Shown here: piece after piece, positions 7,593 through 54,739 of the stretch
Layout: each line of letters starts with the position of its first letter
How positions within the stretch are numbered: the first letter of the stretch is position 1
Source: a virus
Virus record (IMG/VR): IMGVR_UViG_3300046821_000134
Coordinates: 1-64,000 of that record
Direction: 5' to 3' (one strand)
Length of the DNA: 64,000 bases
Translations under genes and position numbers: made by a program
The notes under the pieces: generated by a model
Told to the model about the DNA's origin: nothing
What the model saw: the letters and a program-made list of their open reading frames with translations, nothing else
The model's database searches: none

Positions 7593-7867
7593 CGCTTATG
7601 TTACGGATACATCGTTTCCATGTACCCTCTGCATGTCCCCATGCAGGCCAGACTATATCACAACCCGCGAGGGGTTTCTCCCATTTCGAGGTCACTTGGC
7701 CCCTACGGCTTTCGCCTAGTCGTTGCACGTTCTCCACTGCCATTACTTTCGCATACAAACGGTACTCGTGTTTGTGGAGCTTCGCTCAGGATTGACTGTT
7801 CTAGTCTTCCCCTGAATTAGAGAGATTGTTCAAAAGCAATCGCTTGCTTAGGCCGCTAGTTTTGTTA
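7593..7867 (-). ncRNA. Group I self-splicing intron in the ribonucleotide reductase gene
   Basis: 275 nt without its own ORF. The group I core is visible on the minus strand: AATCCTGAGC (P3/P4 region, about 7761-7770), ACGACTA (near 7698) and GATATAGTC (near 7647). The last two form the P7 guanosine site. The 5' splice follows a U and the intron ends in G, as group I chemistry needs. Splicing there restores Asn-Pro-Cys-Gly-Glu, the class II active-site motif, with the Cys codon split T|GT. Confidence 0.93.
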
Positions 7868-8813
7868 ACGGGTTTGTGGACTTTATATTTTCTTGGTACT
7901 TTGCAGGATTGTAGTAATTCGCCCGATCAAGGAACAACACTCCCGGTTCTGCACGATTGTATGTGGATTCCATCACAAGGTTCCACAGTTGAAGAACAGA
8001 AATTGTGTCATACACAACAACAGGATATCCTTTAGCTTTCCAATCCTTGATATTGCCATTCCATTTTGCTTTATACGACGGGTGCTCAGTATCCGGGAAC
8101 ACCAAATCCCATTTATCTAAGTCTGCAAACTTTACAGGGTCTTCTTTGAGTTTGTTCAATCGCTCCATAAACTCATCGGAGAAATTCACAGAGATGTTAA
8201 ACTTAGTTAGGCGCCCGTGTTGTTGCTTTGCAGTGATGAATTCTATGACATCCGGGTGCCAATCATCCAAGCAGCCCATCATGGCACCTTTGCGAATCTT
8301 ACCCTTGGCCTTGCTATTGCTCTTCGTTTTACCAGAGCCTGATGTGACAATCTCAGATGACTTATCAAATAACTCCATAAACTTCACAGCCCCCGGGGTA
8401 TCTACGCCGATCCCCTTGATATAAGCACCACGTGGGCGAATGTAAGAGAAGTTCTCGCCGTAGCCTCCTTCCGACGCCAGTGTTTTTGCCTGCCAGTCCA
8501 GCCGCTGCATAATGCCCTGCAGGGAGTCAATGTCGTCGACTGTGTCTGGTCCAACAAAACAGTTTGCAAGTGTTGTATTCTTGAAATCAGTGCCTGCGTT
8601 GCTATAGATACGCCCGCCTGTGGTAGATTTAAAATCTGCAAGCATGTCTCCAAACTTCTCAGTCCATTCTTGAACTTTCTCTGGTGTTTTCTCCACACTT
8701 GCAAGTGCTCTTGCTACACGAGACAGTGTATCATCGATAGTGACATCTTCATGAAACTTATACGTACTCTCCCAAACGTCTTTAGAAAAACTATCCTGAA
8801 ATTTTGTCATCAT
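7868..8813 (-). CDS. nrdJ: Class II ribonucleotide reductase, exon 1
   Basis: N-terminal 315 codons plus one base of the reductase that makes deoxynucleotides from ribonucleotides with adenosylcobalamin. The conserved early Cys lies in TLANCFVGP (redox partner), followed by GGYGENFSYIRPRGA and the GCLDDWHPDVIEFI segment found in NrdJ/NrdA barrels. It ends KSTNP, one residue before the catalytic Cys (residue 316). I chose ATG 8813 (MMTKFQDSF) because AAAAGGGA precedes it; an ATG at 8843 is in frame but overlaps the upstream gene more. The frame runs unspliced to a stop in the intron at 7848. Confidence 0.92.
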
Positions 8814-50927: not shown

Positions 50928-53462
50928 TTAAGACGGGATAGGCCCTTCTCTTGTTAAAGAGATGCCTGAGAGGGATACGTTAGGAGAGGATTGATACGCT
51001 TTAGCGAGAATCTTCAAGGCGCTTGATGTAGCATCAACCTCGTCATCGTGAATCTTTCGCATAGACTCAGGGGTGCCTTTGAACATCTCAAGCGTTTCAA
51101 GCCACTCATCATTCCATGCCCCGACCACGATCTTCACTTTACCTGCTTCTGCAAGCTGGCAGAATGGGAGGAACCTTTGTAGCTTACCGCTCCAGCCACT
51201 CATCTTATCAACTTTGACGATAAGCCCTTCCTCAGAGAGAACTGTTACCATGTGGTTTGCCACGTATTTACCTGCTGCACCAGCGTCCTGTGGTACAACA
51301 ATAGGAACGTGTAACCCATCTCTAGTTGCCTGAGTGATGATGCGCTCAAGCACTGCATGAGGCTTCGCATGGAACTTGACCATATCAATCACGTAATACG
51401 TCCCAAACCTGTCACGCCCCATTAGCATTCCAACCGTGGCATCAGGATTACGATTAACCTCAGACTTCTCTGTTGCTGCCAAGTCGTAGGCTCTAACAAG
51501 GTCGGTATCCACCGGTACCTGATCCATTGTTATCAGATCGCACCAAGACCGGTTAAACATGTTCTGTCCAACATCGATATTAAGCCATGAGCCATGCAGG
51601 TATTTCAGTTGGTTGCGCTTAGGCTGTGCAAGGAGGCTTGGAAGGTAGGTGTTGTTGCGTGGAGGGAGTAGGTAGGGGTTGTCGTAGACCGTAGAAGGGA
51701 TAAATCTGAATGACTTAGCAATAAAGAGCTTACCTTTTGGCACGTCGCGTATCTGTGCTGCAGTAAGCCCCTTCCCTCTAATCATGCCGCGTGGGGCGCC
51801 ATGAATCTCAAAACACTCCTCTTCTGAGTCTGCCCACAAAACCTTGCCATCAAGAACAACCATCCAGCGAACCTTGTCTTCTGTTCCCGGCTTTGGCACG
51901 CCATCTTCGTCTAGGCAGTAATCTACCCACTCCCTTAGAAAGCTATTATGATTTGGGTTAGCTGTTAGGATAACTTGTTCTTTGTATTTTGAGTGGGCAC
52001 TACGAACCCGAGACAACAAGAATAAAATTACATCCAAAGACCAATCATCGCCGGCTTCGTCCACGCATAAACGGCTAGCTTGGAGGCCCTGGAGGCTACC
52101 AAGCACACTTGCATCTGGGATACCAAGGAACTGTATCTCGGCCTGAGATGGGAACGTCCAGATCAGTCCAGTCTTATTAAAGTCACCGCCAAAAGGTTGG
52201 TAGAATTGTTTAGATTCATTCACAATGCCACCGGGGCGTGTAAGCTCAGGTCTTGATTTACGCGCAATCACGATGCGCTCATTTGGATCATCCAAGTATG
52301 CCAACATCTTCATCAAAATTGTTGACGTATTGTGTGTCACAATGTAGTTTGTTGTAATATACAGCTTTTCGTCTCCTGATATACTAATACAAGACGCTTC
52401 TCCTTTTCCTATTGGCTCTATGCACTCAACGCGTAACCCCACGTGTTTGGATATTGTTCTGTCTTTTTTCGCAGGAAGTCTGAAAAGACTCCCTTGGTTC
52501 ATTCCCCTCACATACAGTTTATAAACAATGGAGCAAATATGCTTTACACCATCTTTGACGTAACTTCCCTGCTTGGTGGAGAGCTTTGCAGTGTACCCAA
52601 GTGAGTGAAGGATTTCCTTAACCTGATGAGCCATTCGTTCGGAGGTTGTGTCATAATATACGTTACCTCTTTTACATACATAGCCGTCTGTATCAAACAA
52701 CCCCTGTAGTAAGTCAAAACGATTCTTGATAGAGCCTAACATATATTCTTCAGGAATGAATTTGGTCTGAGAAAGGGTTCCTCTCAGGCCAAGGCGTTCC
52801 ATTTCAGAAAATGTGCCAAGAAGAGTTTTTGTAACAGATGTTGGTCTGCCCTCATTAAGAGTAAAGGCGCCGGGAGTAATCCCTTCCCGCTTTAGTTCTT
52901 CCCACACAAATTCACTACTGTTAGTTACAGCCGGGCTTCCTGTTTTTGGTATATGGCCGTCACCTAGTATAACCCCCATCGCATAAGGGGAGATAACGTG
53001 TTCTTTGTGTTCGGAATGTTGTACTGGCTTTATAAGAGGTATGATCGGAAGTCTTTTACGAATTCCTTTTGTCCCTTCGTATTTAGAGGTTACTTTCAAC
53101 ATTTCAAGCGTATTTGTAATCTTACTGTTAACTTGCCCGTCACCTGCCTCATGCCATTTCCATAGATGTTCTCCACAACAGTCTATGATTCTTCCATCTT
53201 GAAAACGAACACGGTATAAGTCAACAACCCCCTGAGGAAATACGCCGGTAACAGTCTCAACCGTGTTATCAGGAGTAATTACTTTGTCGCCAACCTTAAT
53301 ATCTTCAATATTTACGAACCCGTTTACAGTTAAAACTTTCTCTCCATGTCGAAGAGCTTTCCCGCCGCCAGCACCACCACCCACAAGGATAATGTCTTCT
53401 TGTGCTTCTAGCATCATTCTTTGCTTTACTGACGCCGGGCCGAACACCTTATTCTCAGCCAT
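50928..53462 (-). CDS. terL: Terminase large subunit with an in-frame intein (844 codons)
   Basis: DNA packaging motor. The precursor is 844 residues from ATG 53462 (GGAGGAAGGGTG before it, overlapping the upstream TGA); removing the 343-residue intein leaves about 501, a usual TerL length. Walker A GGGAGGGK is followed by Thr-Ser only after the intein, Walker B is ASRLCVDEAGDDW, and the nuclease domain includes RAYDLAATEKSE (first Asp), VVPQDAGAAGKYV and HDDEVDATSSAL (last acidic group). Confidence 0.93.
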   Translation of the reverse strand: MAENKVFGPASVKQRMMLEAQEDIILVGGGAGGGKALRHGEKVLTVNGFVNIEDIKVGDKVITPDNTVETVTGVFPQGVVDLYRVRFQDGRIIDCCGEHLWKWHEAGDGQVNSKITNTLEMLKVTSKYEGTKGIRKRLPIIPLIKPVQHSEHKEHVISPYAMGVILGDGHIPKTGSPAVTNSSEFVWEELKREGITPGAFTLNEGRPTSVTKTLLGTFSEMERLGLRGTLSQTKFIPEEYMLGSIKNRFDLLQGLFDTDGYVCKRGNVYYDTTSERMAHQVKEILHSLGYTAKLSTKQGSYVKDGVKHICSIVYKLYVRGMNQGSLFRLPAKKDRTISKHVGLRVECIEPIGKGEASCISISGDEKLYITTNYIVTHNTSTILMKMLAYLDDPNERIVIARKSRPELTRPGGIVNESKQFYQPFGGDFNKTGLIWTFPSQAEIQFLGIPDASVLGSLQGLQASRLCVDEAGDDWSLDVILFLLSRVRSAHSKYKEQVILTANPNHNSFLREWVDYCLDEDGVPKPGTEDKVRWMVVLDGKVLWADSEEECFEIHGAPRGMIRGKGLTAAQIRDVPKGKLFIAKSFRFIPSTVYDNPYLLPPRNNTYLPSLLAQPKRNQLKYLHGSWLNIDVGQNMFNRSWCDLITMDQVPVDTDLVRAYDLAATEKSEVNRNPDATVGMLMGRDRFGTYYVIDMVKFHAKPHAVLERIITQATRDGLHVPIVVPQDAGAAGKYVANHMVTVLSEEGLIVKVDKMSGWSGKLQRFLPFCQLAEAGKVKIVVGAWNDEWLETLEMFKGTPESMRKIHDDEVDATSSALKILAKAYQSSPNVSLSGISLTREGPIPS
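52329..53357 (-). mobile_element. Class 3 (WCT) intein with LAGLIDADG endonuclease
   Basis: 343 residues beginning Ala-Leu-Arg-His and ending VTHN before Thr+1. There is no Cys/Ser at position 1. Instead the class 3 set is seen: Trp in CGEHLWKWHE (block B), Cys in ASCISISGDE (block F) and Thr in IVTHN (block G). The homing nuclease has two dodecapeptide motifs, AMGVILGDGHI and LLQGLFDTDGYV. It is inserted between Lys and Thr of terminase Walker A. Confidence 0.9.
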
Positions 53463-53698
53463 CACCCTTCCTCCAAATCAAACTTAAAATACATCCCCTT
53501 ATTGCTACTATTCACAGCAATGATGGGCAACTTCCTCGCATTGGCAATCAATGCCAATAGCTCAATAAATTCCTTAGAACTCTTCCCCACAACATCTACG
53601 CAATCCAATGAGAGAGAATCTAGCTCGCCGTCCTCATCAAGATAGGCCCAACGCAGGGAGTATTTCCCACGATAAGAAACTACACGAATGTTCTTCAC
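53462..53698 (-). CDS. Hypothetical protein (78 aa) before terminase
   Basis: GTG start 53698, with AAAGGA 8 nt upstream; stop overlaps the terminase start. Product begins KNIRVVSYRGKYSLRWA and is a mix of strands and helix. It follows directly after the terminator of the 54 kb RNA. No family recognised. Confidence 0.65.
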   Translation of the reverse strand: MKNIRVVSYRGKYSLRWAYLDEDGELDSLSLDCVDVVGKSSKEFIELLALIANARKLPIIAVNSSNKGMYFKFDLEEG

Positions 53699-53725: not shown

Positions 53726-53759
53726 CAAAAATAACGCCCAAAGGATTTCTCCTTGGGCG
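53726..53759 (-). terminator. Intrinsic terminator of the 54 kb RNA
   Basis: Stem CGCCCAAGGA/TCCTTTGGGCG with a GAAA tetraloop and one bulged T, followed by TTATTTTTG on the minus strand. Confidence 0.92.
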
Positions 53760-54294
53760 CATTGAAACACTATATCGGAAAGGATAAGTGAGAGGAGAAA
53801 CTTAGAGATTATCTGTCCCAACGCATCTCACGCCGGGAGGGTGTTTGCTTCAACACCTAAGCTCCACTGTAAGCAACAGCAGAGGAATACGCGTAACTCT
53901 TTAGGAGAAGGGTTTTACGCATTGGTTGTGGGTGACCGACTCGTCAGCGGGGTGCTTCCCCAGACAGGCGTATAGTCGATTAGCTCAGTCTCGCATACAC
54001 GCAGTGCGAAACATAGTTACAGCGTCCTGTAACGATCCTCTTTTACCCACAAGGAAGTAGTCTATCCGAGGATGTCTTAACACTTGTGGGCTAGGACTTC
54101 CTGTTCTGACTGCTTCCTTGTAGGTGCTGGTTACTAATCCAGCGATAGGCTTTCGGGCTACCAGCTCCACTGTCCCGCCTGTGTCTTATTACGCATTTCA
54201 GGTCTTTGCGTACAACATCCCCGGAGGTCAAAGGAGGTAACAAATCCCTCCGGGGAACACATCACAATGTGTCTTTTCTCATCTCTCACTGTAT
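53727..54294 (-). ncRNA. Large structured non-coding RNA, about 570 nt, family unknown
   Basis: Perfect promoter, no credible ORF and a strong terminator. The 5' end GTGAGAG-AT-GAGAAA (54289-54275) pairs with TTTCTC-CTCTCAC (53800-53788), 13 bp closing the whole molecule. Inside are hairpins ACACAT/ATGTGT, CCCCGGAGG/CCTCCGGGG, TACGCA/TGCGTA, GCTGG/CCAGC, CCCACAAG/CTTGTGGG, GTTACAG/CTGTAAC, TCGCA/TGCGA and GGTGTT/AACACC. Size and ornate plan recall ROOL or GOLLD phage RNAs, but I cannot match a consensus. No tRNA T-loop is present. The 61-codon frame at 53985-54170 is within it and looks fortuitous. Confidence 0.85.
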
Positions 54295-54300
54295 ATAGAC

Positions 54301-54329
54301 ATTATATACCCGGGATGTGTCTTTGTCAA
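54301..54329 (-). promoter_or_regulatory. Perfect consensus sigma70 promoter of the 54 kb RNA
   Basis: Minus strand TTGACA (54324-54329), 17 nt, TATAAT (54301-54306). Start expected near 54294. Confidence 0.93.
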
Positions 54330-54337
54330 GCTATTTA

Positions 54338-54739
54338 TTAAACATTTTTCAGATGGTCAATGTCCAACACACCATCTCCTGTGGTAGCATCTTCTCCGTC
54401 AATGTTTTGAATAACACTTGGAGAGAATGTTACACGAGGCTTCCCATCTTCCTCTTCTGGAGTTATTGTCTTCATGCCAATACGGACAAGCTGTTTCTCT
54501 TGCAGTTCTGCTCTGACATTGGCAATACTAGCTGCAAGGTTATTCTTTGCACTCCTATCAATATTCTCTGACTGCAACGTAAGCACCTTAGTAATCAAAT
54601 CAGCCTTTATCTTGATATCAGCCTCAGGGTCTTGCAGGATTGCAATAGCAGCATTATAGGCCATCTTGGAGAGCTTATCAAGGTTCTTGATCAGCTTTTT
54701 CTGCTCTGCTGTGATGGCTTTTGCGTCAATTTCCTTCAT
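54338..54739 (-). CDS. Terminase small subunit candidate (133 aa)
   Basis: Helical acidic protein starting MKEIDAKAITAEQKKLI with a long helical core and an acidic C-terminus (GEDATTGDGVLDIDHL). There is no obvious helix-turn-helix, so the identity rests on place, size and fold pattern. It lies upstream of TerL, separated by the large RNA. GGAAGG precedes the ATG. Confidence 0.65.
   Translation of the reverse strand: MKEIDAKAITAEQKKLIKNLDKLSKMAYNAAIAILQDPEADIKIKADLITKVLTLQSENIDRSAKNNLAASIANVRAELQEKQLVRIGMKTITPEEEDGKPRVTFSPSVIQNIDGEDATTGDGVLDIDHLKNV

Follow-up and report, generated by a model that had tools for sequence, protein, structure and literature searches.

ROOL and GOLLD are phage RNAs that occur near tRNA islands and form cages, according to PMC12286853, in which GOLLD is also stated to bind ribosomes in pull-downs. 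The ~800-nt noncoding RNA of ICP1 and the lncRNAs of phage K are large, very abundant transcripts devoid of ORFs, with functions that are unknown (PMC7567579, PMC9241854). OLE RNA carries a CCUCCU mimic of the anti-Shine-Dalgarno (anti-SD) sequence that is required for binding of bS21, which is believed to make the 16S tail available for initiation (PMC12054373). In RNAIII, RsaE and LhrC, UCCC loops pair with the Shine-Dalgarno (SD) sites of proven targets (PMC4132741).

Here, we analyzed a 64,000-nt stretch of DNA (the window) from a freshwater phage whose virus record spans 80,152 bases. It contains a gene for a structured noncoding RNA of about 560 nt (53735–54294, minus strand), delineated by its fold, homologues, a covariance model, lack of an Rfam family and noncoding character. 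Like ROOL, this RNA is a large ornate phage RNA of a type often found near tRNA islands (about 560–660 nt), but its family is much more variable in length, and a conserved anti-SD loop such as that reported below was not found described for ROOL in the passages of PMC12286853 consulted. The ROOL cage is an octamer made solely of RNA, with conserved kissing loops. The ROOL model gave no Rfam match at the locus (E up to 10) or in the homologues (E up to 1). With GOLLD, a phage RNA adjoining or containing tRNAs, the likeness extends to the tRNA association, which is seen in the homologues, although the window itself carries no tRNA. GOLLD is longer and has a conserved 3′ part and a variable 5′ part, whereas in the window family the most broadly retained element is a 5′ hairpin, and a 3′ module is absent from homologues L180 and L090; the GOLLD covariance model matched neither the window nor the homologues. 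OLE is also large and ornate and bears an anti-SD mimic; at the level of sequence, such a mimic is present in the window RNA. OLE differs in being a cellular RNA of Bacillota and in holding its mimic in a paired stem (P6) rather than in an open hairpin loop, and cmscan returned no OLE match. The ICP1 and phage K RNAs belong to different hosts and positions. RNAIII, RsaE and LhrC resemble the window RNA in their pyrimidine loops complementary to SD sequences but are host regulatory RNAs of Gram-positive bacteria that show no homology to it.

An earlier sequence-only reading had been unable to match the RNA to a family, and cmscan against Rfam, with ROOL, GOLLD and OLE included, gave the same outcome: no family reached threshold at the locus, and a permissive search to E 10 yielded chance matches only. 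Matches to ylbH and VrrA, far below threshold and located on the terminator region, were rejected. The ROOL- or GOLLD-like plan proposed in that reading is apt as a gestalt, because units of the homologues carry tRNA genes and ROOL and GOLLD typically lie near tRNA islands, but by the Rfam models the RNA is a member of neither. As far as its sequences tell, the family is new to Rfam and in kind like ROOL and GOLLD, that is, a large tRNA-linked phage RNA.

An RNA gene with its own promoter and terminator signals

The RNA gene, its promoter and its terminator all lie on the minus strand; the strand was absent from the sequence-only reading, which had proposed a full transcription unit with TTGACA-17-TATAAT, a transcript of ~570 nt and a GAAA-loop terminator. 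These elements were borne out. The sigma-70 promoter (54301–54329) consists of TTGACA at 54329–54324, a 17-nt spacer and TATAAT at 54306–54301, with 12 of 12 consensus matches, and sequence inspection places an intrinsic terminator with a GAAA loop and a T tail at 53734–53760. The 5′ end of the RNA at 54294 was deduced from the −10 box. Promoter-like hexamers occur at the equivalent place in L009, L011, L012, L013, L148, L171, L180 and L090. A discrete, independently transcribed unit is a well-supported prediction from these promoter and terminator signals, and we infer that the transcript accumulates to abundance during infection. The promoter had been regarded as one of only two perfect ones, a count that needs correction to three in the window, at 54329 (minus), 50880 (minus) and 25605 (plus). 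The second of these (50880–50852) is situated directly upstream of the portal gene.

The minimum free energy (MFE) of the RNA, −209.7 kcal/mol, compares with −165.1 ± 6.6 kcal/mol in 100 dinucleotide shuffles, none of which was as good (z = −6.7). In the MFE structure, a multi-branched core carries more than eight hairpins, where eight had been described, and is enclosed by a closing stem, P1. This stem joins 54275–54289 (5′ arm) to 53788–53800 (3′ arm) through some 14 pairs that include a small bulge, where 13 bp had been claimed. P1 was seen in the MFE of the window RNA only and was not found in the homologues, so it is without comparative support. A central long helix pairs 54108–54125 (ACAAGGAAG..AGUC) with 54045–54062 (GACUACUUCCUUGUGGGU) in both MFE and alignment. 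From the alignment, we further recognized hairpins with a conserved UUAGUAA loop (54126–54143) and a conserved CGAAAG-type loop (54144–54162), the latter with a covarying stem (alignment columns 161–181) in which three pairs are changed on both sides.

The region had also been read as lacking a credible ORF, and a check for a conserved translated gene found none. The longest ORF on the RNA strand, 61 codons with a GTG start (53985–54170), had no Pfam or PHROGs match and no counterpart among the homologues, and a coding gene was rejected on these grounds.

Genomic neighborhood

On the minus strand, the genes follow in the order Rz-like spanin, terminase small subunit (TerS) candidate, RNA, p78, terminase large subunit (TerL) with intein, portal, protease and major capsid protein (MCP). 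The TerS candidate (54338–54739) was assigned from position and remote homology: the window protein has no PHROGs match, its homologue in L090 matches phrog_641 (terminase small subunit, E = 7e-4), and the predicted fold, a helical one, is a weak match to PaP3 TerS (E = 2.9). We infer that it is the small subunit. The 78-codon p78 gene (53462–53698), between RNA and TerL, is conserved in L009, L011, L012 and L013 and also present in L090 and L180; it matches no family, and its predicted structure (pLDDT 60) was too poor for use. TerL (50928–53465; phrog_979, E = 5e-121) has its intein between the GGGK and T of Walker A. Inteins also occur in TerL of phages TaPaz and HM1, the former annotated as intein-containing, and group I introns lie in or near TerL in L012, L013, L090, L148, L149 and L180. 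Selfish elements have a hot spot in the TerL gene of this clade. Elsewhere in the window, a group I intron (7629–7877, minus, 64 bits) is the sole Rfam match.

A small family of homologous RNAs

The phage is distant from all entries in INPHARED, where the best capsid match (53%) was Limnohabitans phage DC31, followed by Curvibacter phage P26059A, and blastn against the INPHARED phages gave no match for the window RNA or for its homologue L149. In IMG/VR, an MCP scan yielded 80 loci; nhmmer with the window RNA matched L012 (E = 2.4e-6) and L013 (E = 0.0076), both exactly upstream of p78–TerL, and further scans, with TerL, p78 and a motif, brought in L148, L149, L180 and L090. Productive IMG/VR scans were those with the MCP, the TerL alignment and the p78 alignment; single-sequence scans with TerL and TerS gave no matches, nor did a scan of genome contigs for TerL. 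A pattern search of genome contigs produced 26 scattered matches that were poor as hairpins (best E = 0.08) and taken as chance. The gathering of homologues suggested in the sequence-only reading provided six (L011, L012, L013, L148, L149 and L180) and L090 as a probable seventh, all at the same locus between TerS candidate and p78–TerL, with the TerS side of L149 lost at the contig end. Sampling is narrow, because all homologues except L149 (metagenome 3300009085) and L090 (3300044476) come from one metagenome, 3300020045.

The 3′ module (53813–53933, minus) comprises four hairpins, including a CCUUCYCC loop and a GNNAA pentaloop, and is common to L012, L148 and L149. We built a covariance model of it, R3, from these three sequences only, leaving the window out. 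When R3 was run on 339 kb, made up of the window and 16 loci, the top match by a wide margin was 53933–53814 on the minus strand of the window (35.8 bits, E = 3e-8), and a sequence-only profile made without the window ranked the same place first in the 64 kb (E = 6e-5). In the alignment of the four sequences, 86.7% of cells pair and seven pairs are changed on both sides; the covariation score was reached by none of 500 shuffles. The module is weak in L013 and was not found in L011, L180 or L090. Because a window-free model finds the module at this E value, the RNA is a conserved structured one new to Rfam, and very probably the window RNA belongs to a small RNA family absent from that database.

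Family members are modular in architecture and differ greatly in length, from about 280 nt and a tRNA in L180 up to some 800 nt in L148. Such variation would be unusual for a closed symmetric cage, which bears on the idea of a GOLLD/ROOL-like scaffold, that is, an RNA-only self-assembled complex forming a cage or a tRNA or ribosome compartment, whose job depends on quaternary structure, with the anti-SD-like loop as just one contact. Size class, ornate multi-hairpin plan, strong promoter and tRNA-island location in the homologues all agree with a scaffold, as does the depiction, in PMC12286853, of GOLLD and ROOL as cage-forming phage RNAs near tRNA islands. Yet P1 is not conserved and no Rfam match links the RNA to either family, and we consider a scaffold rather unlikely.

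Further variation was observed at this locus. L148 (1774–2570) contains two central-helix copies, one L012-like and one L149-like, and looks like a recombination between RNA types. Just upstream of the terminator before p78, AACAGAAGCCUG..ACAGGACA is conserved in L011, L012, L013, L148, L149, L180 and L090 but was not found in the window. L009 (2441–3260) and L171 (1196–1990) harbor a second, different RNA of about 600–800 nt with a consensus promoter at the same TerS–p78 position. These two are mutually homologous (E = 1.6e-44), and the models showed no homology to the window RNA.

A conserved 5′ hairpin with an anti-SD-like loop

The 5′ hairpin (54218–54256, minus) has a covarying stem of 10 bp and presents the loop GAUUUGUUACCUCCUUUGA. 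Its motif CCUCCUUU (54230–54237) is identical to the 16S rRNA 3′ tail core, which is the anti-SD part of the 16S rRNA 3′ end, a correspondence of only 8 nt of pyrimidines that was noticed after the fact. In beta-proteobacteria, hosts of the nearest cultured relatives, the 16S tail reads ..ACCUCCUUUCU.

Across six distinct sequences of the hairpin, 96.6% of cells are paired. Double-changed cells number 13 versus 5.8 ± 1.5 in shuffles (0 of 500), and the covariation score is 0.68 compared with 0.28 when shuffled and at most 0.19 when slid. Five stem pairs are changed on both sides while CCUCCUUU is invariant in seven of seven members, although this does not amount to seven independent events because the closest homologues share descent. 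Judged from the alignment, the 5′ hairpin with its covarying stem and fixed loop is the strongest constraint in the RNA. The covariation check that had been called for, run with shuffle and slid controls, thus indicates that helices of both the 5′ hairpin and the 3′ module are kept by compensatory change. The probable member L090 (TerL 60% identical; order TerS–RNA–p78–TerL; fold z −8.6) also has CCUCCUUU. Its hairpin, UACAAGUA-CCCCUCCUU-UACUUGUA, occupies the same 5′ position and keeps CCCCUCCUUU at the equivalent place despite a quite different 8-bp stem.

Model R2 scores 53.5–63.9 bits in the seven members, which is consistency rather than independent discovery because R2 was made from them. 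The window was not recovered by a sequence profile of the 5′ module from which it had been left out; homology in this part therefore relies on the hairpin, the alignment and the position, together with linkage to the 3′ module. R2 found no strong match beyond known members in 55 records searched whole and R1 no further 3′ module in 49 records; within this sampling, the RNA is therefore restricted to a small clade.

In the window, the predicted mean unpaired probability of CCUCCUUU is 0.96 versus 0.40 across the RNA; by prediction, the motif is partly paired in L011 (0.35 unpaired) and L013 (0.59). The different RNA of L009 lacks the motif, and that of L171 has it paired in its MFE. A search within the RNAs for a conserved unpaired complement of CCUCCUUU found none, so the partner of the loop is more likely another molecule.

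The locus as a tRNA island

tRNA genes, mostly Thr-UGU and Gly-UCC, are located in the TerS–p78 interval of L011, L012, L013, L148 and L180, and also of L009 and L171; ARAGORN called none in the intervals of the window, L149 and L090. In L180, the 5′ module is joined directly to tRNA-Gly. The gene order of TerS, a noncoding or tRNA segment and TerL marks the normal tRNA-island position of this phage clade.

Could the RNA be a structured leader or spacer of a tRNA operon, acting in processing, transcription through or stability, with the window having lost its tRNAs and kept the leader? In five of seven family members (L011, L012, L013, L148 and L180), tRNAs follow the RNA within one unit, and CCCUCCU in wider relatives is often 45–60 nt upstream of the first tRNA. 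However, the window, L149 and L090 retain an elaborate RNA and terminator without an ARAGORN tRNA, and the structure is still conserved, which makes a mere leader improbable.

The RNA is thus kept without tRNAs. Its position between the terminase genes marks the tRNA island of the clade and not a packaging role, and the island favors the comparison with GOLLD and ROOL over one with a packaging RNA. The sequence-only reading had raised a packaging or virion RNA, which we find unsupported. It would act with the adjoining terminase in the manner of phi29 pRNA, another phage RNA tied to packaging by position, and the place between TerS candidate and TerL is indeed kept in every member that a contig end does not truncate. 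In relatives whose TerL and portal are homologous, however, this place holds tRNAs alone or nothing comparable. TerL itself is an unremarkable member of phrog_979, and cmscan shows no pRNA similarity. phi29 pRNA is smaller than the window RNA and, to our knowledge, confined to phi29-like phages. We regard a packaging function as very improbable.

Cloverleaf-like elements with acceptor stem and T-arm that ARAGORN did not call were noticed in L011 (3306–3375) and L149 (488–562), with similar letters in L012 and L013. Such pieces, in a locus that is a tRNA island in relatives, would fit a decayed tRNA cluster or a neutral noncoding stretch that happens to fold well. Against decay or neutrality stand the fold z of −6.7, pair-preserving double changes well above shuffled and slid controls, the window-free model match at 3e-8 and the retained consensus promoter and terminator, and we give this explanation hardly any credence.

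In the wider clade, CCCTCCT was found 26 times (22 regions) among 73 noncoding regions upstream of TerL, with 5.3 expected and a maximum of 11 in 100 shuffles, and CCCTCCT hairpins number 22 on the transcribed versus 5 on the opposite strand; these counts are indicative but not independent, because the regions are related. In divergent relatives (L092, L097, L098, L115, L139, L143, L156, L158, L159 and L162), a short (C)CCCUCCU hairpin or pyrimidine stretch upstream of TerL precedes the first tRNA of the operon by about 45–60 nt (in L159 also 100 nt).

A possible decoy of the 16S rRNA tail

The best explanation we can offer, put forward tentatively and somewhat short of probable, is that a structured phage RNA in a tRNA island presents a mimic of the 16S tail and thereby shifts translation initiation. 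From the precedents of OLE, the UCCC small RNAs and GOLLD, the likeliest job of the RNA would be that of a 16S-tail decoy altering initiation. With this mimic, the host takeover considered in the sequence-only reading gains a concrete form in a predicted exposed, conserved anti-SD loop.

As a mechanism, an anti-SD decoy acting on initiation via bS21, the 30S subunit or mRNA SD sites is plausible, if far from assured. The RNA would accumulate in the infected cell and expose a loop that imitates the anti-SD tail of 16S rRNA. Held on a stable scaffold, the loop might titrate handlers of the 16S tail, either bS21 or the 30S platform; alternatively, it might base-pair with the SD sites of mRNAs. 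Translation initiation would then shift during infection, while the same operon supplies phage tRNAs in most relatives. The partner might be bS21, the 30S subunit or mRNA leaders; phage-encoded bS21 was found in none of 19 records (the phage and 18 relatives).

A fuller version of the decoy proposal is possible but doubtful: a dedicated RNA in the tRNA island of this freshwater clade would mimic the 16S 3′ tail and capture bS21 or 30S or mask SD sites, reprogramming which mRNAs are translated. At full length it would be large and ornate, and in relatives it would be cut down to a CCCUCCU hairpin at the head of the tRNA operon.

The large RNAs of ICP1 and phage K, like GOLLD and ROOL, have long been puzzling: they are often abundant, and their function is unknown. 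For the new family, comparative evidence points to a definite target, the anti-SD interface, and is open to test by mutation of one loop. The family connects the puzzle of large phage RNAs with the OLE–bS21 result and with phage control of translation initiation. If true, the decoy reading would account for large RNAs sitting among tRNA genes.
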